Virus record (IMG/VR): IMGVR_UViG_3300032288_003597 | Location: 1 to 30,536 of that record | Direction: 5' to 3' (one strand) | Length of the DNA stretch: 30,536 nucleotides | Source: a virus | Part shown: in pieces, positions 6,827-30,536 of the stretch | Position numbering within the stretch: position 1 is the first letter of the stretch | How the letters are laid out: each line of letters starts with the position of its first letter | The notes under the pieces: generated by a model | Databases searched by the model: none | What the model saw: the letters and a program-made list of their open reading frames with translations, nothing else | What the model was told of the DNA's origin: nothing | Made by a program: the position numbers and the translations under genes

Positions 6827-8375
6827 TTTAACTGCAAAACAAAAAGACTATGCGGTTTTCTTGCCGGCACTGAGTAGTTTCTATGCTACATATGTAGGCA
6901 AACAAAGGCATAATCCAAATTATATCGACGCAGCTCGTATGCCTAAACTGTTTGATCGAGGCATGGAGGGTCTTAACTGGCTTAATCCAAACGAAGGGTA
7001 CTTTCCTTATAAGTGGGCTTTGTACAGTGCAGGTCATGCTAATTTAGATACCAACAAGTTCGACGCTAAAGAGGATATGGTTCGTAACCGTGATCCAAAC
7101 AGTTTTGTGTTAGGCGATTCGGGCGGATTTCAAATTGGTAAAGGTGTATGGGAAGGTAATTGGAAAGATCCCAGCTGCCCCAAAGCACAGAAAAAACGCG
7201 AACAAGTACTCAAGTGGATGGATGCCTACATGGATCGAGGCATGATTCTAGATATTCCTGCATGGGTGGCCAGAAGTCCTGCAGGGCAACGAGCCACAGG
7301 TATCACTACTTTTGCAGAAGCAGTACAAGGAACTTATGTTAATAACGATTACTTTATGCGTAATCGTACAGGTAGATGTAAATTTCTAAATGTGCTGCAA
7401 GGTGAAAATCATACCGAAGCAGATATTTGGTATGACCAAATGAAAAAATATTGTGACCCAAAACAATATCCCAACGATCATTTTAACGGGTGGGCCATGG
7501 GCGGTCAGAATATGTGTGATGTGCATCTTACACTAAAAAGACTTGTAGCATTAAGATTTGATGGACTATTAGAACCTGGGCTACATGACTGGATGCACTT
7601 CTTAGGCACAAGCAAATTAGAATGGGCTTTGTTGTTAACTGACATACAGAGGGCAATTCGCAAATATCATAATGAAAACTTTACGATAAGTTTTGACTGT
7701 GCAAGTCCATTCCTTGCTACAGCCAACGGACAAATTTATTACGATGTTGTTACTCCAGATCGAGCAAAATGGAGCTATCAAATGCAGCCCAGCGTCGACA
7801 ACAAAAAATATGCCACAGACACTAGGCCTTTTAGGGATGCTGTACTGCAAGATAAGCTATTTGATACTTTTTTAGAAAGTCCTGTCAGTGAGCGACTGCA
7901 AATAAATGATGTTTGTTATTACAAGCCAGGCGACCTAAATAAAATAGGCAAAGAAGGAAAAACTTCTTGGGATAGTTTTAGTTACACACTGCAAATGGGA
8001 CACAATGTATGGACACATATTCATGCTGTTCAAGAAGCAAATCGTCAATGTGATGCTGGTCGATACCCTGATATGTTAGTTGCTACCAGCACTGATCGCC
8101 GTAATACACGACTCTACGATAGAACCTATTTCCGAGACATTGTTAACGATATTTTTGCCACATCTGAGCGAGGCCGTGCAGAACAACTAGTAGAACATTA
8201 CAACAGATATTGGCTAAGTATTGTTGGTACCAGAGGATATACTGGCAAAAAAACAGTAAATGCTAATACTATGTTTAATAGTTTATTTGAAGTAAGTGAA
8301 GCTCAAGAACATCCCATAGATGATTCTGGTTTAGATGAAAATAAATTAAATGAATTGGAGAATCAAAATGTATGA
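6804..8375 (+). CDS. dpdA: DpdA-like DNA guanine transglycosylase (TGT superfamily)
   Basis: Protein of 523 residues. The tRNA-guanine transglycosylase signature LGDSGGFQ is present (D105-Q110), with a second conserved region SFDCASPF in which D298 fits the catalytic nucleophile (FDC-x-P in Tgt), plus MGGQN near residue 230 in place of the Tgt GGL-type loop. The CXCXXC zinc site of bacterial Tgt is not evident. In phages, such divergent Tgt relatives (DpdA) exchange guanine in DNA for a 7-deazaguanine. folE, queD, yhhQ and queE homologues in the same window support a DNA rather than tRNA role. It overlaps the upstream gene by 23 bases. The DpdA subgroup cannot be fixed by eye. Confidence 0.85.
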   Translation: MKQIPQDNLTAKQKDYAVFLPALSSFYATYVGKQRHNPNYIDAARMPKLFDRGMEGLNWLNPNEGYFPYKWALYSAGHANLDTNKFDAKEDMVRNRDPNSFVLGDSGGFQIGKGVWEGNWKDPSCPKAQKKREQVLKWMDAYMDRGMILDIPAWVARSPAGQRATGITTFAEAVQGTYVNNDYFMRNRTGRCKFLNVLQGENHTEADIWYDQMKKYCDPKQYPNDHFNGWAMGGQNMCDVHLTLKRLVALRFDGLLEPGLHDWMHFLGTSKLEWALLLTDIQRAIRKYHNENFTISFDCASPFLATANGQIYYDVVTPDRAKWSYQMQPSVDNKKYATDTRPFRDAVLQDKLFDTFLESPVSERLQINDVCYYKPGDLNKIGKEGKTSWDSFSYTLQMGHNVWTHIHAVQEANRQCDAGRYPDMLVATSTDRRNTRLYDRTYFRDIVNDIFATSERGRAEQLVEHYNRYWLSIVGTRGYTGKKTVNANTMFNSLFEVSEAQEHPIDDSGLDENKLNELENQNV

Positions 8376-8900: not shown

Positions 8901-9785
8901 ATGAAAAGTCTTGTTATTGGCATGGGCATTGGTCAGCTGTACAAAACTGTGCTGTCTGACTTAGGACATGAAGTCATTACTGTGGATTTAAATCCAAACA
9001 CGAATCCGAATTATTTGGATTATAAATCTGCATACATAGATCACAGGTATTTCGACACAGTCCACATCTGTACTCCCAATTATCTGCATTTAGAAACTGC
9101 AATTGATGTGGCCGCAAAAGGTGCTGGCATAGTGTTTGTCGAAAAACCTGGTGTAGAAAATCACAGTCAATGGCGAAAAATGGTTCATGATTTTCCGCAC
9201 ACTAGATTCTTAATGGTTAAAAATAATCAGTATCGTGACGAAATCAAACATTTTCGTGATTTAGCTGCGCGAAGTGAAACTGTAAAAATTATTTGGAATA
9301 ACAACAATCGTATTCCAAGACCTGGCACATGGTTTACAACAAAAGAATTAGCATTTGGTGGAGTAAGTAGAGATTTAATTCCTCACATGTTAAGTTATTA
9401 TTGTGTATTGACAAATTATAAGTTAGGAACAAAATTATTTGGTAAAGCCGATCAAAGATGGCAACTGCAAGACATAGACAGCAGTGATTATGGGCCGGTT
9501 AAACAAGATGGCGTATACAATGTAGATGATTTTTGTGAATTAGAATATAAAAATAACTCAACCACATATATTTTAACAGCAAACTGGCGCACACTGAAAC
9601 CAACGGACATTAGTATAAGTTTTGGTTTAAATTCTAGTGCAGTAAAACATGAGCTGGGTTTGTGTCCTGAATCGGCTTATAAAACAATGATTTGTACAGC
9701 ATTAGACAACATTGACAACAAACAATTTTGGAATGATCAATTGGATCAAGACACTTGGATACATCAACAAATTGAAAGACTATGA
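8901..9785 (+). CDS. Gfo/Idh/MocA-family NAD(P)-dependent oxidoreductase
   Basis: Protein of 294 residues beginning directly after the preceding stop codon. The N-terminal Rossmann fold has VIGMGIG (G7-x-G9-x-G11) and an acidic residue D29 at the end of the second strand, which favours NAD over NADP. HICTPNYLHLETAI and VEKPG (E81-G84) are the hallmark motifs of this family; K82 is the usual catalytic lysine. The C-terminal half would carry the substrate-binding sheet. Relatives oxidise or reduce sugars, inositols and nucleotide sugars. It overlaps the next dehydrogenase gene by 4 bases, so the pair probably acts in the same pathway. Confidence 0.88.
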   Translation: MKSLVIGMGIGQLYKTVLSDLGHEVITVDLNPNTNPNYLDYKSAYIDHRYFDTVHICTPNYLHLETAIDVAAKGAGIVFVEKPGVENHSQWRKMVHDFPHTRFLMVKNNQYRDEIKHFRDLAARSETVKIIWNNNNRIPRPGTWFTTKELAFGGVSRDLIPHMLSYYCVLTNYKLGTKLFGKADQRWQLQDIDSSDYGPVKQDGVYNVDDFCELEYKNNSTTYILTANWRTLKPTDISISFGLNSSAVKHELGLCPESAYKTMICTALDNIDNKQFWNDQLDQDTWIHQQIERL

Positions 9786-10708
9786 AGGTTAGAATTCTTA
9801 ACACTTCGGGCCATGGCAGCTTTAGTGAAGCAAGTTATGATTGTCCTGAGGCAATTGACAATGGTATTATTGTAAAAAATATCATGACCGGAGTCTGCAC
9901 CAGCGATCTTGCCATGATGCAAGGAGAGTTTGGGCCGTTACCATTAAACATGCAAGGACACGAAGGACTGGGGCAAGTAACAAACATAGGCTCCGATGTA
10001 CGCACTGACATCGAAATTGGAGATTTTGTTGCTACCAGAGGAGAACCTGCTTATGCAGATTATTATCCAGTTCGCGATGGTGAATTTGTAAGAGTACCCG
10101 AAGCAGAACCTAAATATATTTTAGAACCAGTGGCCTGCGGAATAAACATTATAACAGGCAATGAACAAGAACTGTTAGCAAGACAAAGAACAAATGCAAA
10201 ACTACTAATTTTGGGCACTGGGTTTCTTGCTTATGTGGCTTACAAGACTTTGAAATTAAAAAACTTTGAATTTGAAATTGATGTGGCGGGCAAAAGCAAC
10301 CAAGATATCTGGCAAAGAGAATCTGTTACACTAATGTCAATGCCCGATAAACACTATGATGTTGTGATTAATCTAAAAGATCAACACGCATGGTTAGAAC
10401 AACAAGATTTGATTAATAACAATGGACTACTAATTGATGCAGTTGGTAGAACTATTTCACAACGAGAAAGTGAAAATTTGTTATGGAAGGCTGTTACCAC
10501 TGTAAGGCCTAGTCCAAGAACATCTGGTTTTTTAGATTGTATGTTGCAGGCAGTTAAATGGATAAAATTTAACGAACTTGTGGTTGACGATTTTTGGAGT
10601 CAAGGGTATAATAGAGATACGAACTGGCAGCAGGCCTTCGAAGACGGAATTAACCGCCCCAAATTTTACAGCAGGGGCTACATATATTGGACAAATAATG
10701 GCAATTGA
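9782..10708 (+). CDS. Zinc-type medium-chain alcohol dehydrogenase-like protein
   Basis: Protein of 308 residues, shorter than the usual ~340-350. Catalytic zinc ligands of the family are visible: C39 in GVCTSDL, H60-E61 in MQGHEGLG, and E115 in ILEPVACG. The four-cysteine structural zinc loop found in many alcohol dehydrogenases is absent. A nucleotide-binding glycine motif ILGTGFLAY lies near residues 143-151. It is likely to oxidise or reduce an alcohol or sugar together with the Gfo/Idh enzyme upstream, to which it is coupled by an ATGA overlap. Substrate unknown; a role in the sugar-type cassette up to 15.4 kb is inferred from context. Confidence 0.82.
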   Translation: MKVRILNTSGHGSFSEASYDCPEAIDNGIIVKNIMTGVCTSDLAMMQGEFGPLPLNMQGHEGLGQVTNIGSDVRTDIEIGDFVATRGEPAYADYYPVRDGEFVRVPEAEPKYILEPVACGINIITGNEQELLARQRTNAKLLILGTGFLAYVAYKTLKLKNFEFEIDVAGKSNQDIWQRESVTLMSMPDKHYDVVINLKDQHAWLEQQDLINNNGLLIDAVGRTISQRESENLLWKAVTTVRPSPRTSGFLDCMLQAVKWIKFNELVVDDFWSQGYNRDTNWQQAFEDGINRPKFYSRGYIYWTNNGN

Positions 10709-13008: not shown

Positions 13009-13579
13009 AATTTTTGAGTTCGAACAACAGTTAGCCAAATACACAGGCGCTGCTTATGCAGTCATGACCGACTGTTGTACCCACGCTATAGAACTTTGTT
13101 TAAGATTTGATAAAATAAAACAGTGTGAGTTCACGGCTTACACTTATCTTAGTATTCCTATGACCATGCACAAATTGGGCATAGAATATCAGTATATCGA
13201 TCAATCTTGGATTGGTGAGTATCAATTTATAAATACAAGAATATGGGACTGTGCTAGAAGATTAGAATCCAATATGTATCGACCAAATACTTTGATGTGT
13301 TTAAGTTTTGGTCATGACAAACCTCTTAGTATAGGTCGCGGCGGCGCTATTCTATTAGACGATGTTGAGGAATACGATAAACTTAGACAGATGCGCTACG
13401 ATGGAAGAGATTTAATTATTAGTCCTTGGCAAAATCAACAGGTATTTCGTATAGGCTATCACTATAGACCAACAATAGAGGAAGCCACTAAAGGTCTTGA
13501 ACTTATTAAAAGTTATAATAACACTAAACCATTATTCAAAGAATATCCAGATCTGCGACAATTTACAATTATAGAATGA
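12977..13579 (+). CDS. Short DegT/DnrJ/EryC1-type PLP aminotransferase
   Basis: At most 200 residues, about half of the normal 370-400 for this family. The N-terminus has EFEQQLAKYTGAAYAVMTDC followed by a Thr-His-Ala helix, equivalent to the family's Gly-x-x-x-Ala-x-x-x-x-Ser-Gly-Thr-x-Ala-Leu segment. D91 (IWDCARRL) matches the Asp that binds the PLP ring nitrogen, and K115 (SFGHDKPLSIGRGGAI) matches the Schiff-base lysine. The C-terminal domain is reduced to ~60 residues. The start is uncertain: GTG 12977, GTG 12983 and TTG 12992 are in frame, and CAGG at 12980-12983 suits the TTG best. It overlaps the glycosyltransferase gene. It may transaminate a keto-sugar or keto-cyclitol, alone or as a dimer. 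Confidence 0.78.
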   Translation: MQVHWLTTFDKIFEFEQQLAKYTGAAYAVMTDCCTHAIELCLRFDKIKQCEFTAYTYLSIPMTMHKLGIEYQYIDQSWIGEYQFINTRIWDCARRLESNMYRPNTLMCLSFGHDKPLSIGRGGAILLDDVEEYDKLRQMRYDGRDLIISPWQNQQVFRIGYHYRPTIEEATKGLELIKSYNNTKPLFKEYPDLRQFTIIE

Positions 13580-15381
13580 ATAATGTTTACTTATTTCAAC
13601 CACAGTACTCGGTAGAATACAGGAAAGAAAAAACTTACTGGATTCCATATAGTGCCGGCTGTATTTGGAGTTATGTAAATCAGTATAATGACATTCAGCA
13701 ACAATTTGAATTGAAGGAAATAATCTTCAAGCGTGAAGACCCCGACAGTGTTGTTGCACGAATGAAAAACCCCGTGATATGCGGCTTTAGTTGCTATGTG
13801 TGGAATGTAAAATACTGTTTAATTCTTGCAGAAAAAATTAAAAATAGTTGGCCCGATTGCATAATACAGTTTGGCGGGCCACAGACCAGTGGTGCTATGT
13901 CTAAATACAAATTTATTGACAGCATTATCTTAGGCGAAGGCGAAGAACAATTTTTAGAAACTCTACGACTAATAAGCAGAAATCAAAAGCCTGAGTTATT
14001 TTATAACAAACAAAGATTACAAGACCTAAATATTCCTAGTCCGTATACATCAGGAGTATTTGATTCAATGATGGGCCAACATCCCAATGTTGTTTGGAAT
14101 ATGACTTTTGAAACTAACCGTGGCTGTCCGTATCAATGCACATTCTGCGACTGGGGCAGTCTTACATACAACAAAGTTCGGAAGTTTGAAGTTGAAAAAG
14201 TTAGAGCGGATTTGGAATGGGCTGCTTCTAAAAATATTGGTTATTTGACTTGTGCAGATGCTAACTTTGGTATGTACAAAGAACGCGATTTAGAAATTGC
14301 TAAGATTATTAAAGAAGTAGCAGACCGTAGCACCATTGACAGTGTAAACTTAATATATGCAAAGAATAGCACTGAAATCGTATTTGAAATCGCAAGGTTA
14401 ATGGGTGAATACAGCAGAGGTGTTACGGTTGCTGTACAGAGTATGCATGGGCCTACATTAAAAGCAATTAAACGAGTTAATATGAAAAGCAATGATCTTG
14501 CTCATATGCTAAGTTTAGGTGAACAGTATGGCGGTGTAACAACTCATACAGACATTATTCTTGGTTTACCATTGGAAACAATAGAATCTTGGAAACAGGG
14601 ATTTAATGAAATACTTGAACTAGGACAGCACGACGGCATTGAGATGGTCTTTAGTATTTTGTTGGAAAACAGTGAAATGAATAATCCAGACTATAGGCAT
14701 TTGTATGGTATTAAGTCTATAGAGGCGCAAGATTACATGCCTTTTTTTAACGATGATGATTGGCGCGAAGTTGAAGAAACTTTTAATATTGTCAATCAAA
14801 CCAGCACAATGACTACAGAAGATATCATAGAAGGATACTTGTATGGCTGGATGATTATTCATTTTCATAACAGTGGATACAGTCAACTTGTTGCCAAATA
14901 CCTGCGTAATATACATGGCGTTGAATATCGCAAGTACTACGACGCACTATTTGAGCAAATTAAATGTAGTGAATTTTTAAAAGAACATTTTAATTACCTA
15001 AATAGTGTTGTAGAAACTTATTTGACTACAGGTATTCTTAAAGATGTAGACAATCACATCAAAGGCGCACACGGACTACACGGTTTTAGTTATAAGTTTT
15101 TCTTTGAACATCAAAAAGAAATTTTAAAGTTATCACTTGCAGTGGCAGAATCTTTTGCTCTATTAGATAAAGGAATTTTGGAATTGCAGGCAAACTACAT
15201 TGTAAATACAGATATACAATATCCGTTAACTGTGTCCAGCGACATCAATGTTAATACTTGGACCAAAGAGACAACGATATATCAAATTAATTCAAAAATT
15301 CAAATAAATGATCAATTTGATTTTTACCAATACCGCAAACAAGGATTGATAAGAAACAAATTGACTTTAGTTAAAGCTTAA
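13576..15381 (+). CDS. Radical SAM protein with B12-binding-like N-terminus
   Basis: Protein of 601 residues coupled to the aminotransferase by an ATGA overlap. Residues ~1-140 resemble a cobalamin-binding Rossmann domain (VICGFSCYVWN, IIQFGGPQTSG, SIILGEGEEQFLETL), but the DXHXXG cobalamin ligand motif is not evident, so B12 may bind base-off or not at all. The radical SAM motif is RGCPYQCTFCDWG (C184, C188, C191), followed by HTDIILGLPLET at the far end of the barrel. About 200 C-terminal residues are family-specific and mostly helical. The reaction could be a methylation or rearrangement on an unactivated carbon; the substrate is unknown, and gene order suggests the sugar-type pathway. Confidence 0.85.
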   Translation: MNNVYLFQPQYSVEYRKEKTYWIPYSAGCIWSYVNQYNDIQQQFELKEIIFKREDPDSVVARMKNPVICGFSCYVWNVKYCLILAEKIKNSWPDCIIQFGGPQTSGAMSKYKFIDSIILGEGEEQFLETLRLISRNQKPELFYNKQRLQDLNIPSPYTSGVFDSMMGQHPNVVWNMTFETNRGCPYQCTFCDWGSLTYNKVRKFEVEKVRADLEWAASKNIGYLTCADANFGMYKERDLEIAKIIKEVADRSTIDSVNLIYAKNSTEIVFEIARLMGEYSRGVTVAVQSMHGPTLKAIKRVNMKSNDLAHMLSLGEQYGGVTTHTDIILGLPLETIESWKQGFNEILELGQHDGIEMVFSILLENSEMNNPDYRHLYGIKSIEAQDYMPFFNDDDWREVEETFNIVNQTSTMTTEDIIEGYLYGWMIIHFHNSGYSQLVAKYLRNIHGVEYRKYYDALFEQIKCSEFLKEHFNYLNSVVETYLTTGILKDVDNHIKGAHGLHGFSYKFFFEHQKEILKLSLAVAESFALLDKGILELQANYIVNTDIQYPLTVSSDINVNTWTKETTIYQINSKIQINDQFDFYQYRKQGLIRNKLTLVKA

Positions 15382-15395
15382 TATAAAATATCATA

Positions 15396-16142
15396 ATGAC
15401 AGACAAAAAACAAACAGCAGTAGACGCAATGGCGGGCGACGGCGGATATTCAGAAGGCTACTTAGGTAGCTACATTCGTGCTAGAATGAGACGCGATAAC
15501 AAGCGTTTTTGGGCGGGCGATAATATCAGCGAATACATCAATGATAGCGAAAAAGAAGTATTAATCAACGAAGCTGCCGAAGCTTTTGAAGTAGTACTGG
15601 ACAGACTACTAATTGACAGAGAAACTGATCCTAACAGCAAAGGTACAGCTCGACGCCTTGCTAAAATGTATTTTAACGAAATAATGGCAGGTAGATATGA
15701 ACCAAGACCAGACGCAACTTGTTTCCCAAACGACAGCCAGGACCGTTATGAAGGTATGCTGGTTGTTCGCAGTGAGCTTCGCAGTATGTGTAGCCATCAT
15801 CACCAACCCGTTACTGGCGTTGCTTATATTGGTATTATTGCTGCTGAAAAACTCATTGGCCTTTCAAAATATACACGCATTGCACAGTGGTGCGCCCGAC
15901 GCGGTACTCTCCAGGAGGAACTTGCTAATGACATTGCTAGGGAAATCGAAGCAGCTACGGGAGCCAAAAACTTAGGTGTTTACATACAGGCAGTACACGG
16001 ATGCTGTGAGAATCGCGGTATTATGGCACACAGCAGTTTAACACAGACAACAGTACTAAAAGGTTCTTTTAAAGAAGATCCTGGTGCTAAGAAAGAATTT
16101 TTTGATAATATTAAACTACAACAGGAATTCGCTCCAAGATAA
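15396..16142 (+). CDS. folE: GTP cyclohydrolase I (FolE)
   Basis: Protein of 248 residues, longer than Escherichia coli FolE (222) because of a ~60-residue N-terminal extension containing SYIRARMRRDNKRFW. The catalytic zinc site is complete: SMCSHHHQPVTGVAYIG gives C132, H134 and H135, and HGCCENRGI gives C203. IGLSKYTRIAQW is the conserved helix after the active site. It converts GTP to dihydroneopterin triphosphate, the first step of 7-deazaguanine (and folate) synthesis. QueD-like, QueE, transporter and DpdA genes in this window point to the 7-deazaguanine route. A TATAAAATA run stands just upstream, which may be promoter-related. Confidence 0.95.
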   Translation: MTDKKQTAVDAMAGDGGYSEGYLGSYIRARMRRDNKRFWAGDNISEYINDSEKEVLINEAAEAFEVVLDRLLIDRETDPNSKGTARRLAKMYFNEIMAGRYEPRPDATCFPNDSQDRYEGMLVVRSELRSMCSHHHQPVTGVAYIGIIAAEKLIGLSKYTRIAQWCARRGTLQEELANDIAREIEAATGAKNLGVYIQAVHGCCENRGIMAHSSLTQTTVLKGSFKEDPGAKKEFFDNIKLQQEFAPR

Positions 16143-17659: not shown

Positions 17660-18166
17660 ATGGCAAATCTACAACCAATACACTACAAATATGTTAGTAC
17701 TAAGGAATACCACGATGCATTTCCTTGTGCTTACAGGCAATGGCGAGCCGATAGTCATTGCAATTTAATTCATGGTTACAGTTTTAGTATGAAATTTTAC
17801 TTTGGAACAAACGAATTAGATGTTCGTAATTGGGCTATGGACTACGGCGGCCTAAAAGAATTAAAAAAAGTACTTGAAGATCAATTTGATCATACGCTTT
17901 TGGTCAGTGCTGATGATCCAGAAATTGAAACTTACAAAATACTTGAACAGAAAAAGATGGCTAAACTTACAATTCTGCCACGACTGGGTTGCGAAGGACT
18001 AGCCGACATGTTGTACAAATATGTTAATGGCGTATATATTCCAGATTTACTAGGTCAAGGCGAAGCTAATAGATTATGGTGTTATCGTGTTGAAGTTCGA
18101 GAAACACAAAGCAACATGGCCTATAGAGAAGGTCATCGCGAATGGAACGAAGATTTGTTTGAATAA
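17660..18166 (+). CDS. queD: QueD-like (PTPS family) protein with altered zinc site
   Basis: Protein of 168 residues, AAAGGAG ribosome site 7 bases upstream. Family features: SHCNLIHGYSFSMKFYF with C34 at the catalytic cysteine position and H38 as zinc ligand; WAMDYGGLKELKKVL where QueD has the DF-x-x-LK helix; QFDHTLLVS where QueD has LDHxxLN; and YRVEVRETQSNMAYR at the terminal Glu strand. However, two of the three histidine zinc ligands appear to be tyrosines: Y25 in PCAYRQ (normally AAHRL) and Y40 in HGY (normally HGH). It should form 6-carboxy-tetrahydropterin from the FolE product if active; the altered site makes another substrate or a binding role possible. Confidence 0.82.
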   Translation: MANLQPIHYKYVSTKEYHDAFPCAYRQWRADSHCNLIHGYSFSMKFYFGTNELDVRNWAMDYGGLKELKKVLEDQFDHTLLVSADDPEIETYKILEQKKMAKLTILPRLGCEGLADMLYKYVNGVYIPDLLGQGEANRLWCYRVEVRETQSNMAYREGHREWNEDLFE

Positions 18167-18351: not shown

Positions 18352-18972
18352 ATGTTTAACAAACTCTTAGCAGGTGTAGACCGTACATTAGCTTACAAGT
18401 TAATGTTGGCGCACATTGTAATTATTGCAGTAAGCAATTATCTAGTGCAATTTAAAATGAATGTCTTTGGTTATCCATTGGCCGCGGCAGCATTTACATT
18501 TCCGCTAGTCGTTGTATTAACAGATTTAACTGTGAGATTGGTGGGTAAAGAAACAGGAAGAGCTGTAATTAGCTTGGCATTTATTCCTGCCATTATTGTT
18601 AGTATTCTTGTAGTGCTAGCAGGTGGTGCACCATCTAGCGTGGCATTTAGAATCGGCCTAGGTTCAGGTATTGCTTATTTTCTAAGCAACTTACTGGATG
18701 TTTATGTGTTTCAATATTTCCGCGAAAAATATCAATCATGGTATATTGCACCAACACTGAGTGCGGTGGTCAGTACTTTCTTAGATACATATGTATTCTT
18801 TTTCACCGCATTTGCCTATGGCGCCAACGAGTTCATGGCAGCTAACTGGCACATTGTTGCTACCAACAACAGCATCAGTAAAATTCTTGTAAGTTTGTTA
18901 GTTATTCTTCCTGCTTATGGTGTGTTACTTAATCATTTGCAGAAAAAGATTTCAAATAACTCAGCACAGTAA
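18352..18972 (+). CDS. yhhQ: YhhQ-family queuosine precursor transporter
   Basis: Integral membrane protein of 206 residues with about six hydrophobic helices. It carries YhhQ/QPTR (DUF165) landmarks: SNYLVQ in helix 1, TFPLVVVLTDLTVRLVGKE (the DLTVR signature), LSNLLDVYVFQYFRE, a membrane STFLDTYVFFFTAF segment and a final LPAYGVLLNHL, all aligned in order with E. coli YhhQ as I know it. YhhQ imports preQ0 and preQ1 across the inner membrane. Here it would supply the phage modification pathway with precursor taken up by the cell. It has a very strong ribosome site, its own long leader, and a terminator directly behind it, so it may be a separately controlled unit. Confidence 0.92.
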   Translation: MFNKLLAGVDRTLAYKLMLAHIVIIAVSNYLVQFKMNVFGYPLAAAAFTFPLVVVLTDLTVRLVGKETGRAVISLAFIPAIIVSILVVLAGGAPSSVAFRIGLGSGIAYFLSNLLDVYVFQYFREKYQSWYIAPTLSAVVSTFLDTYVFFFTAFAYGANEFMAANWHIVATNNSISKILVSLLVILPAYGVLLNHLQKKISNNSAQ

Positions 18973-19030: not shown

Positions 19031-20050
19031 ATGAGAATTGAAGACGAAGTCAAACTTGATTTTCGAGATGTTTTAATACGGCCAAAACGCAGCACTTTAC
19101 ACAGCCGTCGACAGGTTGATTTAACCAAAGTTTATAAATTTAAACATAGTAGACATGAATGGACAGGCATTCCAGTCATGGCCAGTAACATGGATGGGGT
19201 AGGCACTATTGATATGGCCAAGGCACTACAGAAACATAAAATGTTTACTTGCCTTGTTAAAACATACGCAGAAGATGATCTATTTAATTTAGTTGGCTAT
19301 TTTGGTGGTAACTATTTCGCAGTAAGCACAGGTACCAGTGAAAATGATTTTAGACGACTTAGTCTCATTATTAATTCATATCCTGAAATTCAATTTATCT
19401 GTATAGATGTTGCTAACGGATATCAAGAAAGATTTGCTGATTATGTATCAGATGTTCGAGAAGCATTTCCCGATAAAACAATTATTGCCGGTAATGTTGT
19501 AACAGCAGATATGACACAGGAATTAATTTTACGAGGAGCAGACATTGTCAAAGTCGGAATCGGACCGGGATCGGTATGTACAACTAGGATACAAACTGGG
19601 GTTGGCTACCCGCAACTTAGTGCGATCATTGAGTGCGCTGATGCGGCACATGGCCTCAATGCCCATATTATTGCTGATGGTGGTTGCACTTGTCCAGGCG
19701 ATGTGGCTAAGGCATTTGGTGCAGGCGCGGATTTTGTCATGTTGGGTGGTATGTTAGCTGGACACGATCAAGGTGGTGGAAAAGTTAATGATGGTAAAGT
19801 AACTTTTTACGGTATGAGTTCAGACACAGCCATGGACAAACACCACGGAGGTGTTGCAGAATATCGAAGCAGCGAAGGTAGAACTGTTGAAATTGCCTAC
19901 AAAGGGGATGTTCACGATACTGTATTAGACTTATTGGGTGGTATTAGAAGCACTTGCACATATGTTGGAGCCGAAACATTGAAACAGTTACCCAAATGCA
20001 CAACTTTTGTAAAAGTAAACAGACAAATTAATGATGTGTTTTTAAAATGA
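19031..20050 (+). CDS. guaC: GMP reductase
   Basis: Protein of 339 residues, close to E. coli GuaC (347). The active-site loop [19 protein letters not shown] holds the catalytic C183 and the following Thr of the GMPR/IMPDH family. [10 protein letters not shown] near residue 50, [20 protein letters not shown] (phosphate-binding) and FYGMSS with a flexible flap ([16 protein letters not shown]) follow in order. There are no CBS domains, and the flap and VNR-type tail favour GMP reductase over IMP dehydrogenase. It converts GMP to IMP with NADPH, releasing ammonia. In this context it could shift guanine nucleotides away from normal dGTP or recycle host guanine; both are inference. Confidence 0.92.
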
Positions 20051-20322
20051 ATAAACGAGTAGAAGAAGCATTAGGTATATTGCAAGAAGAATGTGCCGAA
20101 GTAATTGTCGAAGTCAGCAAATGTCGTAGATTTGGTATAGAAAATAAACACTACAAATCTGGTTTGGCACATAAAAAAATGTTGGAAAATGAACTAGGTG
20201 ATGTTTTAGCATTGGTTGACATTCTAATAGAAGAAAGTATAATAACCCATGATGGTCTTAATATTGCAAAACAAGCAAAAAAAGATAAACTAAGATTATG
20301 GTCAAATTTATATGAAACTTAA
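20047..20322 (+). CDS. MazG-like nucleotide pyrophosphohydrolase
   Basis: Protein of 91 residues, coupled to guaC by an ATGA overlap. The EXXE...EXXD metal-binding pattern of all-alpha NTP pyrophosphatases is present: [14 protein letters not shown] (E15, E18) and [13 protein letters not shown] (E49, D52), followed by a helical lysine-rich tail. Such enzymes hydrolyse (d)NTPs or alarmones to monophosphates. Coupling to GMP reductase suggests work on guanine nucleotides, though the substrate cannot be read from sequence. Confidence 0.85.
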
Positions 20323-21166
20323 AGTTAGCGAAATTTTTTATTCGGCACAAGGCGAAGGTCGTTTTGTGGGTGTACCCAGTGTGTTCCTTCGTACTTTCGG
20401 TTGTAACTTTACTTGTAGTGGTTTTGGTTGTCGACCTGGAGAGAAAAGCACCGAAGCTGACGAAGTGGCTAAAAATGTTCATTTATATAAAACATTTGAA
20501 GAACTGCCATTGGTCAATACTGGCTGTGACAGTTATGCATCGTGGCATCCAGCATTTAAAGATTTAAGCCCAACTTACGACACAGATACCTTAGTTAACA
20601 AGCTGTTAAGTCTTACACCAAACAATCATTGGGTACAAAATAATGGCAACGATGTGCATTTGGTAATCACAGGCGGTGAACCTTTACTGGGTTGGCAGCG
20701 GGTCTATGAAGAATTACTAAATAGTCCAAACATGCAAGATTTAGAAAATCTTACATTTGAAACAAACGGTACACAAAAATTACAACCAAGATTTGCCGAT
20801 TATCTCGACGACTGGAATAAGTTAGGCAGAGAAATTACATTTAGTGTAAGTCCAAAATTAAGTGCTTCAGGTGAATCATGGTCTGACGCTATTTGTCCAG
20901 ATATAGTCGCTGAATATCAAAATCATGGTACTGTTTATCTTAAGTTTGTGATTGACAGTGAACAACATTTTACAGAAGTAGATCAAGCAGTCGCCGAATA
21001 TAGAACAGCAGGATTCAATGGCATAGTTTATGTTATGCCACAAGGCGGTGTACTAACTCCCTATGCACAAAATCGAGTAAAAGTGGCAGATTGGGCATTG
21101 GCTAGAGGTTATAACTATAGCCCGCGACTACATGTTGATCTTTGGGGTAATGGTTGGGGTAAGTAA
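20312..21166 (+). CDS. queE: 7-carboxy-7-deazaguanine synthase (QueE)
   Basis: Radical SAM protein of 284 residues. The N-terminus [20 protein letters not shown] and following VFLRTFGCNFTC are diagnostic of QueE. GGEPLLGWQRVYEEL and LTFETNGT supply the SAM-binding GGE motif and the later strand; KFVIDSEQHF and VYVMPQGG follow as expected. The cluster motif is unusual: C31 and C35 are spaced normally, but the family's third cysteine (CD-S/T-x-Y) seems to be C72 in GCDSYASWH, 36 residues later, with an extra C40 in the insert. It makes 7-carboxy-7-deazaguanine from carboxy-tetrahydropterin. It overlaps the MazG-like gene by 11 bases. Confidence 0.92.
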   Translation: MKLKVSEIFYSAQGEGRFVGVPSVFLRTFGCNFTCSGFGCRPGEKSTEADEVAKNVHLYKTFEELPLVNTGCDSYASWHPAFKDLSPTYDTDTLVNKLLSLTPNNHWVQNNGNDVHLVITGGEPLLGWQRVYEELLNSPNMQDLENLTFETNGTQKLQPRFADYLDDWNKLGREITFSVSPKLSASGESWSDAICPDIVAEYQNHGTVYLKFVIDSEQHFTEVDQAVAEYRTAGFNGIVYVMPQGGVLTPYAQNRVKVADWALARGYNYSPRLHVDLWGNGWGK

Positions 21167-25445: not shown

Positions 25446-25518
25446 GTATACATTTTTTTTGGTTGACCAAAATTCCTGAATTTGCTATAATAATGGCATA
25501 CAGTAACAAAACAGGAGT
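25430..25518 (+). repeat. Duplicated promoter/leader module, copy 1
   Basis: This stretch and 25929-26007 share the same order of elements: AAGTAATACYTARGTA at the end of the upstream gene, AAAATTCC in the promoter spacer, then a 35-base block from GCTATAATAATGGC to ACAGGAGT that differs at one base. Copy 1 has an extra T-run (CATTTTTTTT, 25451-25460). Confidence 0.8.
25463..25491 (+). promoter_or_regulatory. Sigma70-like extended -10 promoter for 25524
   Basis: TTGACC (25463-25468), 17-base spacer, TGC then TATAAT (25486-25491). The spacer contains an inverted repeat AAATTC-CT-GAATTT, placed where a repressor would block polymerase. Initiation near 25498; CAGGAG ribosome site at 25512-25517. 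Confidence 0.8.
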
Positions 25519-25523
25519 CGAAA

Positions 25524-25937
25524 ATGGCCTTTGTAAGTCAAGAGCTTAAATCTAAACTGGCACCCAAAATTAAAGCAATTTGCAAAAAATACGGGATCAA
25601 AGCCAGCCTAGCTGTTCGCAATCACAGCACTCTTTGTCTGAACATCAAGTCTGGCAAAATTGATTTTATTGGCAATTCTAATAAAGTCTGTGGCAACGAC
25701 CATTATCAAGTATCTCGAGGTTTTCAGTCCAATCAGTCTGGTTACGATAATGTCAATGTATATCATTACAAAAACCATTACAGTGGCCGGGCCCTAAAGT
25801 TTTTGTCAGAAGTTATCCCTGCCATGAATCAAGGCAATCACGATAATTCGGATATTATGACTGATTACTTTGATGTGGGTTGGTATGTAGATGTTAACAT
25901 TGGCAAATGGAACAAACCCTACGCCCTTGAAAAGTAA
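25524..25937 (+). CDS. Conserved-type phage protein, unknown function
   Basis: Protein of 137 residues. It opens with a basic helix (KSKLAPKIKAICKKYGIKAS), then strands LAVRNHSTLCLNIKSGKIDF, a Gly/Asn/Tyr-rich middle (NQSGYDNVNVYHYKNHY), and WYVDVNIGKWNKPY. The fold is likely alpha/beta with many aromatic and histidine residues. It has a strong promoter and a good ribosome site, so it is probably expressed early or strongly. I have no function for it. Confidence 0.78.
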   Translation: MAFVSQELKSKLAPKIKAICKKYGIKASLAVRNHSTLCLNIKSGKIDFIGNSNKVCGNDHYQVSRGFQSNQSGYDNVNVYHYKNHYSGRALKFLSEVIPAMNQGNHDNSDIMTDYFDVGWYVDVNIGKWNKPYALEK

Positions 25938-26007
25938 TACTTAGGTAGTACTTGCTCAAAATTCCCAATTTTGCTATAATAATGGCTTACAGTAACAAAA
26001 CAGGAGT
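25929..26007 (+). repeat. Duplicated promoter/leader module, copy 2
   Basis: Second copy of the module at 25430-25518, placed 499 bases further on in front of a different gene. The block from the -10 region to the ribosome site is identical except for one A/T change. The downstream proteins share only a short Met-Ala start, so regulation, not protein sequence, was duplicated. Confidence 0.8.
25952..25980 (+). promoter_or_regulatory. Sigma70-like extended -10 promoter for 26013
   Basis: TTGCTC (25952-25957), 17-base spacer, TGC then TATAAT (25975-25980). The spacer holds a perfect inverted repeat CAAAATT-CCC-AATTTTG. CAGGAG (26001-26006) is the ribosome site. Confidence 0.78.
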
Positions 26008-26012
26008 TGCAA

Positions 26013-26303
26013 ATGGCTTCAATCCAGGAAATTAACGCAACCATTATCAGCGGTGTTTTCACCAATGATCAGTTGGATTCTATTGTAATGGCAATCAAAT
26101 TTGCTCGAAATCAATTGGCAACCAAAAACAAGTTTTCCTTGGTCAAAGGTACTCAGGTCAAGTTTACTAGTAGCCGTTCCGGGCAAGTTGTTCTTGGTAC
26201 TGTTGAAAAAGTAAACCGCAAGTTTGTAATTGTGCGTGAAAAAATTCCAGGCGCTTTTGGTATGCAATGGCGAGTGCCTGCTAACATGTTGACTGCGGCA
26301 TAA
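26013..26303 (+). CDS. Small conserved-type phage protein, possible SH3-like barrel
   Basis: Protein of 96 residues. The start is the ATG at 26013, six bases after CAGGAG; a TTG at 26007 is too close to that site. An N-terminal helical half (IQEINATIISG, DQLDSIVMAIKFARNQL) precedes a basic strand-rich half (KGTQVKFTSSRSGQVVLGTV, then NRKFVIVRE and WRVPANML), which looks like a small SH3-like or KOW-like barrel that may bind nucleic acid. That reading is inference. It has its own promoter. Confidence 0.75.
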   Translation: MASIQEINATIISGVFTNDQLDSIVMAIKFARNQLATKNKFSLVKGTQVKFTSSRSGQVVLGTVEKVNRKFVIVREKIPGAFGMQWRVPANMLTAA

Positions 26304-26361: not shown

Positions 26362-27474
26362 ATGTCTAAGGACTCATCAATCACTGAACATCGCACTGTA
26401 ACTGCACTGACAGCTCGTCGTGCTATTATTAAGTGTTTTAAGAAACAACGACCCTTGTTCTTGTGGGGGCCGCCCGGTATTGGCAAATCTGAATTGGTTG
26501 CTGGAATTGCCAAAGACATGGGTGGTCTAATGATTGACCTTCGTCTTGCACAGATGGAACCCACCGACCTGCGTGGTATTCCTTATTACAATAAAGACAA
26601 AGGCCTTATGGATTGGGCGCCGCCCATTGATTTGCCCAGCCAAGAACTGGCAGACCAGTATCCTCTTATTTGTCTGTTCTTGGACGAAATGAACAGTGCG
26701 GCTCCCAGCATTCAGGCCGCGGCCTATCAGCTGGTTTTGAATCGCAGGATTGGCAAATATGTTTTGCCTGACAATGTAGTAGTGATTGCCGCTGGTAACC
26801 GCGAAAGCGACAAAGGTGTTACTTATCGTATGCCTGCTCCGCTGGCTAATCGTTTTGTCCACTTGGAAATGCGAGTAGACCACGAAGCTTGGGAACAATG
26901 GGCTACCCTTAACAAAATCAACTCTGATGTGGTTGGTTACATTGGCTTTGCCAAACAGGATCTGTTTGACTTTGACCCCCGAAGCTCAAGCCGGTCATTT
27001 CCAACTCCCCGTTCTTGGACTTTTGTCAGTGAACTCTTGGAGGACGATGACTGTACCGACAGCGAGCTAACTGATTTGATTTCGGGTGCTGTGGGCGAAG
27101 GTGTTGCGGTCAAGTTCATGGCACACCGCAAGGTTGCAGGCCAACTGCCTAAGCCTGAAGATATTCTGAATGGCAAAGTCACTGACCTTAAAGTTAAAGA
27201 AATTTCGGCCATGTACAGTTTGACAGTGAGCCTGTGCTATGAACTTCAAGACTATATTCAGAAAGTCAGCGGCAAGCCTGATGAAAAATTTCACACCATG
27301 GCTGACTATTTCTTCCGTTACATGATGGATAATTTTACCACAGAACTTACCGTTATGGGTGCTCGTGTTGCACTGACCACTTACAATCTGCCGTTTGTTC
27401 CTGGCAAGCTCAAGCATTTTGATGAGTTCCACAAACGATTTGGCAAATACATTGTGGCTGCTAACACCAAGTAA
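26362..27474 (+). CDS. MoxR-type AAA+ ATPase
   Basis: Protein of 370 residues. Walker A is GPPGIGKS (G36-S43, K42), Walker B is LICLFLDEMN (D108, E109), sensor 1 region VVVIAAGNRE (N in the GNRE), and an arginine-rich PAPLANRFVHLEMR follows as in MoxR proteins, which process substrates or insert metal into partners carrying a VWA domain. The second half is helical. A VWA/metallopeptidase gene lies one small gene downstream, the usual MoxR-VWA pairing. In a phage such pairs may remodel a host or virion complex; the target is unknown. It has its own promoter. Confidence 0.92.
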   Translation: MSKDSSITEHRTVTALTARRAIIKCFKKQRPLFLWGPPGIGKSELVAGIAKDMGGLMIDLRLAQMEPTDLRGIPYYNKDKGLMDWAPPIDLPSQELADQYPLICLFLDEMNSAAPSIQAAAYQLVLNRRIGKYVLPDNVVVIAAGNRESDKGVTYRMPAPLANRFVHLEMRVDHEAWEQWATLNKINSDVVGYIGFAKQDLFDFDPRSSSRSFPTPRSWTFVSELLEDDDCTDSELTDLISGAVGEGVAVKFMAHRKVAGQLPKPEDILNGKVTDLKVKEISAMYSLTVSLCYELQDYIQKVSGKPDEKFHTMADYFFRYMMDNFTTELTVMGARVALTTYNLPFVPGKLKHFDEFHKRFGKYIVAANTK

Positions 27475-27535: not shown

Positions 27536-27832
27536 TTGAGCATCAAAATTGTAGAACTTGATTGGAGATTCAAAGGTCGTAAAGCCTTTAAATATAGAGT
27601 TGGATTAGAAGATTCTATGGAAAGTTCTACTCCCCAATTGGCCAAGTGGCTAAAATGGGCAACTGAAACATGGGGTATGAGTGTGCCTTTGGATATGTTT
27701 CTCAGTAATACCGAATTCGAAAGAAATCCACATTGGGTCTGGCATCATTATGACAGCGTGACTTGGAAACGCCTGTATTTACTGCTAAAGTCCGATCAAG
27801 ACCTGGCATTATTCAAACTTAAATGGATGTAG
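27536..27832 (+). CDS. Small LRWS-family-like protein between MoxR and VWA genes
   Basis: Protein of 98 residues with a TTG start supported by AGGAG (27525-27529) six bases upstream. It has LAKWLKWATETWGMSVPLDM in the middle and ends SDQDLALFKLKWM. That end matches the shared C-terminus of the array of small proteins at 29175-30536 (acidic residue, hydrophobic, Phe-x-Leu-Arg/Lys-Trp). Its place between MoxR and its likely partner suggests the small family and the MoxR/VWA pair belong together. Function unknown. Confidence 0.72.
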   Translation: MSIKIVELDWRFKGRKAFKYRVGLEDSMESSTPQLAKWLKWATETWGMSVPLDMFLSNTEFERNPHWVWHHYDSVTWKRLYLLLKSDQDLALFKLKWM

Positions 27833-27845
27833 TACTTGAGTATTA

Positions 27846-27874
27846 ATGACAAATATTCATAAATCTGCTATAAT
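27846..27874 (+). promoter_or_regulatory. Sigma70-like extended -10 promoter for the VWA gene
   Basis: ATGACA (27846-27851), 17-base spacer, TGC and TATAAT (27869-27874). AAGGAG follows as ribosome site and the ATG is at 27898. TAGTACTTG just upstream (27830-27838) also occurs at 25946-25954 before the 26013 gene. Confidence 0.75.
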
Positions 27875-27897
27875 ATATACATTAACAAGGAGTATAA

Positions 27898-29175
27898 ATG
27901 TCAAGTTCGGACTCTAAACAAAAAGGCATTGGCGGCAGATTAACGGACACGGTTGATCCTGCTTTGGATCGTGCAGTGCGTGAAAAACTAACCACTGCTC
28001 GAATCGGACTTTTGCTTAAGGCGCCTTTCTTTGGTAATCTTGCTACTCGACTGCAATTGGTTAACGCAGATGCATGGTGCAGTACCGCAGCCACCGATGG
28101 TCGCAAATTCTATTACAATACTGATTTTGTAAACAAACTCAAACCCAAAGAGTTGGAGTTTTTGTTTGGGCACGAAGTTTTGCATAATGTCTATGATCAC
28201 ATGGGTCGTAACGGCGACCGTGACCGTAGATTGTTTAATTGCGCCGCAGACTTCTGTGTGAACAGTGACTTGATTGAGCAACGAATCGGCGATAAGATTA
28301 CTCCTTGCCTTTACGATGCAAAATACAAAGGGTGGAGTGCTGAAGAAGTTTACGATGACCTTTATGACCAAGCAGAAAAAATTGATATCAGCAACCTGCT
28401 GGATCAATTGCTGGATGAGCACTTAGATGGTGAGGGTGAGGGTGCTAACGGTGACGATGATGGTGAAGAAAAAGATGGTAAAGGTCGTCCTCGACTGAGC
28501 AAGGAAGAACGCCAACAGATTAAAGATGAAATTCGTGAAGCTTTGTTGCAGGCAGCGCAGGCCACTGGGGCGGGAAACTTGCCGTCAGGAGTCAAACGAC
28601 TTATTAAAGATTTGACCCAGCCTGTAGTTAACTGGCGTGACTTGTTGGAGCAACAAATTCAAAGCACTGTTAAAAGTGACTTTACTTGGATGCGCCCCAG
28701 TCGCCGCAGTTGGCATTTGGATGCTGTAATGCCTGGCATGATTCCAGGAGAACAGATTGATGTTTGTATTGCCATTGACACATCTGGTTCGATTGGTGAA
28801 GCAGACATCAAGGCTTTTATGGCAGAAATTAAAGGCATCATGGAATCCTATGATGAGTACAAAATACAAGTGTGGAGTTTCGATACTGAAGTTTATAATC
28901 ATCAAACTTTTTCCAGCGACACACTAGACGACATTCTGACCTATGAACCTCAAGGCGGCGGTGGTACTGACTTTATGGCTAACTGGGAATATATGAAAGC
29001 TAATGATATTCAGCCTAAAAAGTTTATCATGTTTACAGACGGTTTTCCTTTTGGTGAGTGGGGAGATGCAGATTATTGCGACACGGTGTTTATCATCAAA
29101 GGCAATGAACAGGCAGAACCACCGTTTGGTGTTTGGGCAATTTATGAAAGAGCCAAGGAATTGGCAAAGACTTAA
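27898..29175 (+). CDS. Metallopeptidase-like / VWA-domain protein (DUF2201 type)
   Basis: Protein of 425 residues. The N-terminal domain has GHEVLHNVYDHMGR with an HEXXH zinc motif (H92, E93, H96) and a following NCAADFCVNSDLI, as in the putative metallopeptidase domain usually joined to a VWA-like domain. A charged linker rich in Asp, Glu and Gly (about residues 175-205) leads to the VWA domain, whose metal site is complete: CIAIDTSGSIGEADI (D294, S296, S298) and GGGGTDFMANW (Thr), with FIMFTDGFP supplying the later Asp. It is the expected partner of the MoxR ATPase upstream. The target protein is unknown. It overlaps the next gene by one base and has its own promoter. Confidence 0.9.
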   Translation: MSSSDSKQKGIGGRLTDTVDPALDRAVREKLTTARIGLLLKAPFFGNLATRLQLVNADAWCSTAATDGRKFYYNTDFVNKLKPKELEFLFGHEVLHNVYDHMGRNGDRDRRLFNCAADFCVNSDLIEQRIGDKITPCLYDAKYKGWSAEEVYDDLYDQAEKIDISNLLDQLLDEHLDGEGEGANGDDDGEEKDGKGRPRLSKEERQQIKDEIREALLQAAQATGAGNLPSGVKRLIKDLTQPVVNWRDLLEQQIQSTVKSDFTWMRPSRRSWHLDAVMPGMIPGEQIDVCIAIDTSGSIGEADIKAFMAEIKGIMESYDEYKIQVWSFDTEVYNHQTFSSDTLDDILTYEPQGGGGTDFMANWEYMKANDIQPKKFIMFTDGFPFGEWGDADYCDTVFIIKGNEQAEPPFGVWAIYERAKELAKT

Positions 29176-29411
29176 TGAGCGCAATCTACACTATTGAACA
29201 CCACTCTAGTCGTAGAAACACCATAAGGGTCCACTTCTTAGACGAGGGGTGGGCCCAAGTTAATGACTATAATCATTGGATTCAAGAAACAATTGACGAA
29301 ATGGTATTGTGGTGTGACCAACACAAGTGTGGTGAGAGAACTGCCTATGACATGTTTAGATTTGCTAGTAAAAAAGAACTGACCATGTTTTTACTGCGGT
29401 GGGACAAATGA
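29175..29411 (+). CDS. LRWS-family small protein 1
   Basis: Protein of 78 residues starting within the VWA gene stop. Features: IQETIDEMVLWCDQHKCGER and the end KKELTMFLLRWDK. It shares with the next genes a helix ending in Trp-Cys and a C-terminal Phe-x-Leu-Arg-Trp motif. The final codons (GCGGTGGGACAAATGA, 29396-29411) also carry the ribosome site and start of the next gene. No known family; function unknown. Confidence 0.75.
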   Translation: MSAIYTIEHHSSRRNTIRVHFLDEGWAQVNDYNHWIQETIDEMVLWCDQHKCGERTAYDMFRFASKKELTMFLLRWDK

Positions 29412-29641
29412 ACCAAAAAGTTTTTATAGAAAAAAATTCCTATCAATTGGTCAGTGATGAGCGCGATATCATGCTACCTTGGAAACTTACCAAAGAAATT
29501 CAGACATGGTGTAATGCTAACAATATAATAGCAGAACAGAATCCACGACAAGTAATACTTCAAACCGCGTTTGGGGTTGCTCTTTGGCGTATTAAAGACG
29601 AAAAACAAAGAATGTGGTTTGCCTTGAGGTGGTCGTCATGA
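29408..29641 (+). CDS. LRWS-family small protein 2
   Basis: Protein of 77 residues, start at the ATG at 29408 overlapping the previous TGA as ATGA; an in-frame start at 29399 lies within the conserved end of the previous gene. It has WKLTKEIQTWCNANNI and ends RMWFALRWSS, the same plan as its neighbours: polar start, Trp-Cys helix, a central strand with ALWRI, then Phe-Ala-Leu-Arg-Trp-Ser. Function unknown. Confidence 0.72.
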   Translation: MNQKVFIEKNSYQLVSDERDIMLPWKLTKEIQTWCNANNIIAEQNPRQVILQTAFGVALWRIKDEKQRMWFALRWSS

Positions 29642-29910
29642 CTGGAGATATAAAACTGATCAAAGAAATAGCTAATGCAACAGCCAAAGAATTACAAGAA
29701 GAAATAGATTGGGAAGTTCTATGCGAAATGTTAAAAGAAATAGATTGGGTCGAAGTCAAATTAGATTGGCCAAAAATGACTGCGTCTTTAGCACACGAAA
29801 TTAAAGAATGGTGCAGGGCAAATTTAAAAAATGCTTATCACGCTCGAGGGCGTACCTGGATATTTTCAACAGAAAAAGATGCTAGCATGTTTATATTAAG
29901 GTGGTCATGA
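29638..29910 (+). CDS. LRWS-family small protein 3
   Basis: Protein of 90 residues, start at the ATG at 29638 in an ATGA overlap, with GAGGTGG (29626-29632) as ribosome site. An extra acidic N-terminal helix (ATAKELQEEIDWEVLCEMLK) precedes the family core: LAHEIKEWCRANLKN, TWIFSTEKDASMFILRWS. The doubled Glu-Ile-Asp-Trp segment may be an internal repeat. Confidence 0.73.
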   Translation: MTGDIKLIKEIANATAKELQEEIDWEVLCEMLKEIDWVEVKLDWPKMTASLAHEIKEWCRANLKNAYHARGRTWIFSTEKDASMFILRWS

Positions 29911-30173
29911 ACACTGTAAATTTAAAACCAGTTGCCGGTGGCTGGGTAGCAGAGCAACCAAATTTCCTAGTTATGGCGAAATCTATAGTTGACAATGAGC
30001 CATGGTACACAGTTAGTTGCCGTAAAGAAGTCAGTGCGTGGATACGAGAGTGTTTTTGGGACCAAGAAAATCAGCAATGGTTTCAAAACATTGATGAACA
30101 ATGGCATATCAACATGAATGTGTTTGATGTCAATGAAAAAATTTACACGCTATTAGGGTTAAAATGGTCATGA
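29907..30173 (+). CDS. LRWS-family small protein 4 (divergent)
   Basis: Protein of 88 residues, start at the ATG at 29907 in an ATGA overlap behind AAGGTGG. The C-terminus is YTLLGLKWS. The core is looser than in its neighbours: CRKEVSAWIRECFWDQENQQ has Trp-Ile where others have Trp-Cys, and the central part is Trp-rich. It shares a VNLKPVAGGW N-terminus not seen in the others. Confidence 0.7.
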   Translation: MNTVNLKPVAGGWVAEQPNFLVMAKSIVDNEPWYTVSCRKEVSAWIRECFWDQENQQWFQNIDEQWHINMNVFDVNEKIYTLLGLKWS

Positions 30174-30424
30174 CAGTGACTTACCGGCCCTTGAAGGGTT
30201 TTCCTGGCGTAAAAGTTCCCCAGCTACATCGTGTGGTCTACGCAAAGACTGTGGATCATGTATTAGCTCAGTATCAGCGAAGCTATAAGGATTATCTAGT
30301 GGATGAATGGTTAAAATCAAACTGTCAGCATCCTTATTATCACAGTCCGGGATATCTTCGTGAAAAGTTCATTGAATTTGAATGTGACGAAGATGCAGTG
30401 ATGTTTGCGTTGAGGTGGTCATGA
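30170..30424 (+). CDS. LRWS-family small protein 5
   Basis: Protein of 84 residues from the ATG at 30170 (ATGA overlap; an ATG at 30164 is also in frame). A basic N-terminus (TYRPLKGFPGVKVPQLHR) is followed by a Tyr/Asp-rich helix with LVDEWLKSNCQHPYY and the family end FECDEDAVMFALRWS, which matches protein 3 and protein 2 best. Function unknown. Confidence 0.72.
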   Translation: MTVTYRPLKGFPGVKVPQLHRVVYAKTVDHVLAQYQRSYKDYLVDEWLKSNCQHPYYHSPGYLREKFIEFECDEDAVMFALRWS

Positions 30425-30536
30425 CTGCTCCACATCGCTGTCGCTGGCAGTATAACGGGGCGGCACCGTTCAATGACATTGTGGCCTGGTGTTTTCAACA
30501 TTTCGGCAGTAAAGTTACTTGGAGTTATCTCAATGA
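30421..30536 (+). CDS. LRWS-family small protein 6 (partial, runs off the window)
   Basis: At least 38 residues open to the window end, start ATG 30421 in an ATGA overlap behind GAGGTGG. The visible part has FNDIVAWCFQHFGSKVTWSY, matching the Trp-Cys helix and following strand of its neighbours. The expected LRWS-like end would lie beyond the window. Confidence 0.65.
   Translation, partial: MTAPHRCRWQYNGAAPFNDIVAWCFQHFGSKVTWSYLN

Follow-up and report, generated by a model that had tools for sequence, protein, structure and literature searches.

What do the tiny overlapping genes at the end of a viral contig encode, and do they act together with the ATPase and metallopeptidase genes beside them? 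The question is raised by IMG/VR virus record IMGVR_UViG_3300032288_003597, which we analyzed over its complete length of 30,536 bases, referred to here as the window. At 29175–30536 (+), directly 3′ of a gene for a VWA protein, the window carries an array of five complete small genes and a sixth that is cut by the contig end, which falls within the array. Neighboring genes overlap by ATGA at each joint. A sequence-only reading of this DNA had listed six consecutive short genes from 29175 to the end of the window, and all six are present there. Our analysis establishes a small-protein family with one predicted fold, a recurring joint between its genes, turnover of these genes, and captured fragments of other phage proteins that, where tested, are under constraint. 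The chimeric architecture, in which a constant C-terminal domain follows a variable and in some members captured N-terminus, is well supported; the function that we infer for it lies in host–phage conflict. The dual-coding nature of the joint and the captured fragments go beyond the sequence-only reading.

The common element is a C-terminal βαββα domain ending in F-x-L-R/K-W, for which we coin the name LRW domain. Among open reading frames (ORFs) of at least 40 residues in the window and 81 loci, an F/L-x-L-R/K-W end followed by zero to two residues is found in 157 of 3439 on the VWA-coding strand and in 2 of 3539 on the opposite strand. LRWS-type ends, already noticed as a shared feature, therefore lie far above the opposite-strand control. 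At E < 1e-3, a profile built on the 24 C-terminal residues has 103 matches on the coding strand, the other strand having none. Profile searches yielded about 700 members, 635 of them distinct, and about 942–944 distinct members after whole genomes had been added. In blastp clustering (single linkage, composition correction off), 582 of the 635 distinct members fall into one component at E < 1e-5, which bears out the proposed common descent. Up to 35 members per genome are found by whole-contig profile searches, confirming an expanded and diverging set of paralogs, and 25 of 28 large contigs, which may be fragments, are positive. When viral contigs were scanned with the joint as the sole criterion, without regard to VWA, at least 120 loci were retrieved, most of which have additional members beside the matched gene. 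At the C-terminus the consensus reads F-x-F-K/R-D/N-E-x-D-A-x-W/L/M-F-x-L-R-W; the widest members additionally share an upstream helix ending in Trp-Cys.

In AlphaFold predictions, the common domain is arranged as β-α-β-β-α and its last helix terminates in the LRW motif. The mean predicted local distance difference test score is 86.4 for window gene 3 and 84–91 for the core of the L253 member, so that the structure prediction proposed earlier as a check returns this fold for both. No solved structure in the PDB is significantly similar to the LRW domain. The BFVD structures that match mostly belong to small, unnamed proteins from uncultured phages, with one from Atu_ph07 in addition. No family model was found in Pfam, PHROGs, NCBIfam, PADLOC or the PDB, where isolated weak matches were the only ones obtained. 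Subfamily A3, the one subfamily searched against 84,980 cellular genomes, has no member in them, and tblastn of two single members and a 1605-residue concatenation against cultured phages returned no relatives. A whole-record profile search of cultured phages (E ≤ 1) gives about 44 candidate members in Sinorhizobium phage Phosso, 5 in Atu_ph07 and 3 in Pseudomonas phage 30-3. Some of the Phosso candidates lie in runs of overlapping genes, and their end motif is weaker, the F-K-L part being kept and R-W not. Searches of the open-access literature in PMC turned up no earlier description of this array or of the chimeric architecture. As far as we found, the LRW set is an undescribed, widespread and fast-changing family of small proteins that share one new fold. 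A conserved protein of about 80 residues with the same plan, ending in YFxLKWG, is encoded 4–6 kb downstream of VWA at several loci (L027 14359–14601, L031 13052–13288 and similar), and may be an ancestral single-copy relative of the LRW genes.

In the window, array gene 1 (29175–29411, +) starts in the VWA stop codon (TAATG), ends in LLRWDK and belongs to family B, which also provides the first array gene after VWA in L003–L006. Gene 2 (29408–29641, +), of family C, ends in ALRWSS, and gene 3 (29638–29910, +), with a gp23-like helix ahead of its LRW domain, ends in ILRWS. Gene 4 (29907–30173, +; WYTVSC core, GLKWS end) and gene 5 (30170–30424, +; ALRWS end) are both absent from the near-identical phage L003. 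That phage has a complete orthologue of the truncated gene 6 (30421–30536, +), a 59-residue ORF at 9998–10177 ending in LLRWS. The plan shared by the array genes had also been ascribed to a gene between the MoxR and VWA genes (27536–27832, +; TTG start, FKLKWM end). It holds for the array, whereas the 27536 gene proves to be a distant relative with a weak LRW profile score (E ~1), its homologues in related loci reaching ~1e-3.

The genes meet in a joint that is read twice. The typical last codons are AGG TGG TCA TGA, in which AGGTGG serves the next gene as ribosome-binding site and ATGA is the overlap of start and stop. With the sites used for ascertainment removed, AGG accounts for 79% of the Arg codons that precede Trp, compared with 5% of Arg codons in long ORFs. 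Since the Arg-Trp codons serve as ribosome-binding site, the LRW end is partly a translation signal. We rejected a pure DNA constraint: ends of the LKW type (AAATGG, AAGTGG) and the F-x-L positions are kept, and the loss of R-W with retention of F-K-L in Phosso contradicts it as well. Because the Lys variants and F-x-L positions persist, a protein constraint on the end remains.

Two copies of one 12-base joint, AGGTGGTCATGA, lie in the window, at 29899–29910 (+; gene 3 end, Shine-Dalgarno sequence, gene 4 start) and at 30413–30424 (+; gene 5 end, Shine-Dalgarno sequence, gene 6 start). Over the 4.9 kb that end at 29910, L003 and the window are 98.9% identical, and the match then resumes at gene 6; exactly genes 4 and 5 are missing from L003, with both breakpoints within this joint. 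The arrays of G006 and G022, ~90% identical, differ at 12 places, and by hand count 12 of 24 breakpoint ends in G006 are at most 30 bp from a joint, against about 9% expected. Arrays following VWA mostly have family B first and family E near the end, with scrambled content between them. Cassettes are thus gained, lost and reshuffled, often at joints. The arrays resemble those of integrons in their small cassettes, recurring joint and high turnover, but the LRW joint is an overlap of ribosome-binding site, stop and start. No integrase or attC turned up, with no search aimed at them; likewise, no reverse transcriptase or template repeat of a diversity-generating retroelement was met in passing, again with no aimed search.

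Where do the variable N-termini come from? Comparison of 807 N-termini with 2150 long ORFs revealed gp23 as the only clear parent, with matches down to E = 1e-13. The Pfam Gp23 model scores above its cut-off in two members (E = 5e-12 and 1.4e-8), the match covering profile positions 2–56 of 376. Two separate gp23 regions occur, on different cores. Relative to gp23 of T4-like phages, the N-termini of several members align to residues about 49–101, which correspond to about 90–130 in Tequatrovirus, the neighborhood of Gol, and to residues 151–215. Unlike gp23 itself, members hold only 26–60 of its residues, with a different C-terminal domain and no capsid fold. The possibility that array members are gp23 major capsid proteins was rejected, as only short stretches match and no full-length HK97 fold is present.

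In window gene 3, the segment DIKLIKEIANATAKELQEEIDWEVLC (29647–29724, +) spans residues 4–29, which hhalign aligns with gp23 residues 189–214 at 42% identity over 26 columns (single-comparison E = 7.8e-5, 61.5% probability). A linking relative, L242_9035, matches gp23 151–210 at E = 1e-6; resting on this link, the presence of a gp23 helix in gene 3 is probable, not certain. Matches of N-termini to L246_11316 were set aside as out-of-frame artefacts by inspection; the ORFs of relatives start inside the VWA gene there.

Further parents are seen with more sensitive comparisons. A scan of this kind adds a helicase P-loop, with 19 real and no reversed queries at ≥30 bits; its parent may be a helicase, a terminase or a mosaic of both. 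Motif counts were compared with shuffled members and other small ORFs. Motif A of DNA polymerase occurs 4 times and motif B 3 times, with none in shuffles of either, and the ribonucleotide reductase (RNR) motif N[LP]CxE occurs 6 times (0.07 in shuffles), RQxGKS 8 times (0.1) and GVQPM 13 times (0.4). One core, FSRAKWY, is combined with 46 distinct N-termini, including gp23 segments, P-loop/RNR strings and strings of RNR and gp23-C, and these strings keep a conserved order. The core of window gene 4 bears P-loop fragments in L139 and L184. The VDGxxWYT core, of the same type, is also seen with P-loop, endolysin-like and polymerase-motif N-termini (L101 3388–3678, L139 5193–5591, L155 884–1153, L184 694–1038); the endolysin fragment GRGFVQLTG (L101_3388) is a single case. 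A 6-of-8 k-mer scan was dropped, save for its longest runs, as it performed no better than reversed sequences. Within their parents, GVQPMTGPVG and DINSLYPS lie at the 98th percentile of conservation, KKINLNSLYG at the 96th, SNLCCEILLP at the 95th and the helicase P-loop at the 93rd, while the gp23 helix and the terminase P-loop reach only about the 70th. Recognition is biased to conserved segments, so these high values are merely suggestive.

The captured gp23 fragment is under purifying selection and in frame. In the L248–L253 family, the ratio of nonsynonymous to synonymous rates (dN/dS) is 0.09–0.21 in the fragment, close to that of the core, and in some pairs the synonymous changes approach saturation. 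L250 and L253 have nearly the same core (proportion of nonsynonymous differences, pN, 0.02) and very different gp23 fragments (pN 0.23), indicating that modules have been exchanged. Motif codons show a third-position entropy of 1.0–1.3 bits, compared with 0–0.5 bits at positions 1 and 2. Most tblastn matches to gp23 lie in the frame of LRW-type ORFs, the exceptions being two that reach upstream beyond the ORF start used and two located in ORFs with an LYSLTWS end plus a tail. The dN/dS values, the third-position variation and the kept frame argue for selection on the protein. These data bear on the alternative that the fragments work at the DNA level, as target copies for homing endonucleases, inteins or introns or as recombination seeds, the protein being incidental. 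Polymerase motifs, the RNR NLC motif and P-loops are classical intein and intron sites, as this alternative would have it. We nevertheless consider it very improbable, given that synonymous sites vary freely while the frame is kept, that the gp23 segment exceeds 100 bp, and that the polymerase, RNR and gp23 frames of these phages are uninterrupted. No splicing or endonuclease domain was found in sampled members with Pfam or PHROG models.

What, then, would such proteins do? The most conserved part of gp23 is Gol, which comprises 29 residues within the first quarter of the protein; it binds EF-Tu and activates the Lit protease (PMC3014915). Capsid and terminase proteins trigger bacterial immunity (PMC9712102). 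Taken together with the capture of conserved segments, these reports lead us to favor protein-level mimicry in host–phage conflict. The constant C-terminal domain would be a shared scaffold or docking unit and the variable N-terminus would give specificity. The array, probably expressed early as a coupled block, would supply conflict proteins. Their captured modules would compete for the partners that recognize the parent protein or assemble with it; these would most likely be immune sensors with which the host detects conserved phage proteins, and possibly host factors that bind the parents. That the array is a recombining cassette library of conflict proteins, with captured N-termini acting as mimics, seems to us plausible if somewhat short of probable. 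Its narrower form, in which the scaffold displays strings of conserved motifs from capsid, polymerase, ribonucleotide reductase and packaging or helicase ATPase, exchanged as cassettes and saturating host immune receptors or rival factors, is possible but on the doubtful side. The Lit/Gol, CapRel and Avs defenses recognize the same parent proteins or regions that LRW members would mimic (PMC3014915, PMC9712102); they are host sensors, whereas the fragments here are phage-carried. Small, diverse and fast-changing coupled genes are also found among phage decoy and anti-defense proteins, of which the DNA mimic Ocr is one, and in early host-takeover blocks. We know of no family in which fragments of core phage enzymes form the N-terminus ahead of a constant domain.

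Several points weigh against mimicry. Of 944 distinct members, only about 30 to 45 contain a fragment that can be recognized, and the usual function may therefore be something other than mimicry; there is also a detection bias, as short searches recognize only conserved parent segments. The dN/dS values come from one family only. Several of the captured motifs come from active sites that lie buried in the parent fold and would make poor surface decoys, and the isolated T4 Gol peptide activates Lit instead of blocking it.

There are two serious rivals. Since more than 90% of members have no recognizable fragment, the array may be a library of host-takeover binders, in which the LRW domain binds a host machine and captured coding DNA is raw material for gene birth, acquiring new, unrelated functions. 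Early host-takeover blocks of other phages consist of tiny coupled genes, which the array resembles. A candidate sigma-70-like promoter upstream of VWA and the array (27846–27874, +; ATGACA-17-TATAAT with extended −10, 11 of 12 consensus matches) would also suit this explanation. Against it, parent residues remain conserved, and a small number of parents and motifs return again and again on different cores in a constant order, as random capture would not predict; we regard simple gene birth as somewhat unlikely. The second rival, which we rate as unlikely, sees weapons against co-infecting phages: the fragments would enter and poison the complexes of a related phage, sparing the carrier's own diverged proteins. 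The parents are essential phage proteins and cassette turnover is high, as expected of such weapons, and the gp23 fragment of G012 is 42% identical to the gp23 of its own phage and about 40% identical to cultured T4-like gp23. Against poisoning of complexes, several fragments are short motifs that are not known to take part in assembly, and the gp23 fragment is predicted to be disordered.

The remaining question is whether the array works with its neighbors. The gene at 26362–27474 (+) encodes a MoxR-type AAA+ ATPase (phrog_1297, E = 3e-96; Pfam AAA, E = 8e-7), and that at 27898–29175 (+) a VWA protein with an N-terminal metallopeptidase domain (Pfam DUF2201_N, E = 4e-42; DUF2201, E = 4e-17) and an HEVLH motif. 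MoxR adjacent to a vWA protein with a metallopeptidase domain defines the MoxR-vWA system, and both genes match the chaperone pair described in group 2.2 jumbo phages, named from Atu_ph07 (ASV44729.1/ASV44728.2) and proposed to act in virion assembly or processing (PMC7824862). The small-protein array is absent from that published description. In two contigs the VWA gene has one internal TAA (G010 118934–120166, contig of L169; G013 70509–71741, contig of L195), possibly a frameshift, recoding or an assembly error.

The sequence-only reading took the small proteins for adaptors or targets of this ATPase–metallopeptidase machine. In the window the array does adjoin the pair and overlaps the VWA stop. 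Of 46 loci with VWA directly downstream of MoxR, 26 carry an LRW-type gene between the two, and in 18 of 52 loci such a gene comes directly after VWA. The virion role proposed for the pair (PMC7824862) would fit the capsid fragments of some members. Across genomes, however, linkage is not consistent, and in most large contigs the array lies tens to more than 100 kb from the pair: at 158–167 kb with the pair at 56–60 kb in G011, at 191–213 kb with the pair at 288–291 kb in G022, and at 51–55 and 200–204 kb with the pair at 4–8 kb in G012. Three array contigs (102–157 kb), possibly fragments, have no MoxR/VWA pair. Conversely, MoxR and VWA are adjacent with no array alongside in Phosso and Atu_ph07, and the pair occurs in phages where few or no array genes are found. 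The survey of co-occurrence finds MoxR and VWA each in 24 of 28 large contigs. Because nearly all these large phages have the pair and arrays are often distant, co-occurrence follows phage lineage. The adjacency noted in the window stands, but a dedicated joint role is not supported, and we consider action as adaptors or substrates quite unlikely. LRW proteins, unlike the pair, are neither ATPases nor peptidases and usually lie elsewhere in the genome; those near the pair may reflect a tolerated insertion site or co-expression.

Elsewhere in the window, a 61-base direct repeat (25468–25528 and 25957–26017, 90% identical) stands at the starts of two ORFs and is possibly a repeated regulatory element. 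Genes for GTP cyclohydrolase I, PTPS/QueD-type, Vut_1 (YhhQ-type), TGT/DpdA-like and QueE-like proteins lie at 6804–8375, 15396–16142, 17660–18166, 18352–18972 and 20312–21166, the TGT/DpdA-type and QueE assignments being made by eye with no Pfam match. Together these genes suggest a 7-deazaguanine DNA modification pathway. Radical SAM/SPASM, GFO/IDH/MocA-type oxidoreductase, B12-binding-like radical SAM and IMPDH/GMP-reductase-like genes (3635–4747, 8901–9785, 13576–15381 and 19031–20050) form an unusual metabolic load.

The array is testable in a culturable relative, Sinorhizobium phage Phosso, with its candidate members. Even with no function in mimicry, the LRW genes would represent an undescribed small-protein family that is widespread, whose cassettes meet in a dual-coding joint and show recent turnover. 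Should the mimicry prove functional, phages would have a general strategy in which conserved pieces of their core proteins are displayed against the factors that recognize them, and these pieces would indicate which parts of proteins are sensed by bacterial immunity.

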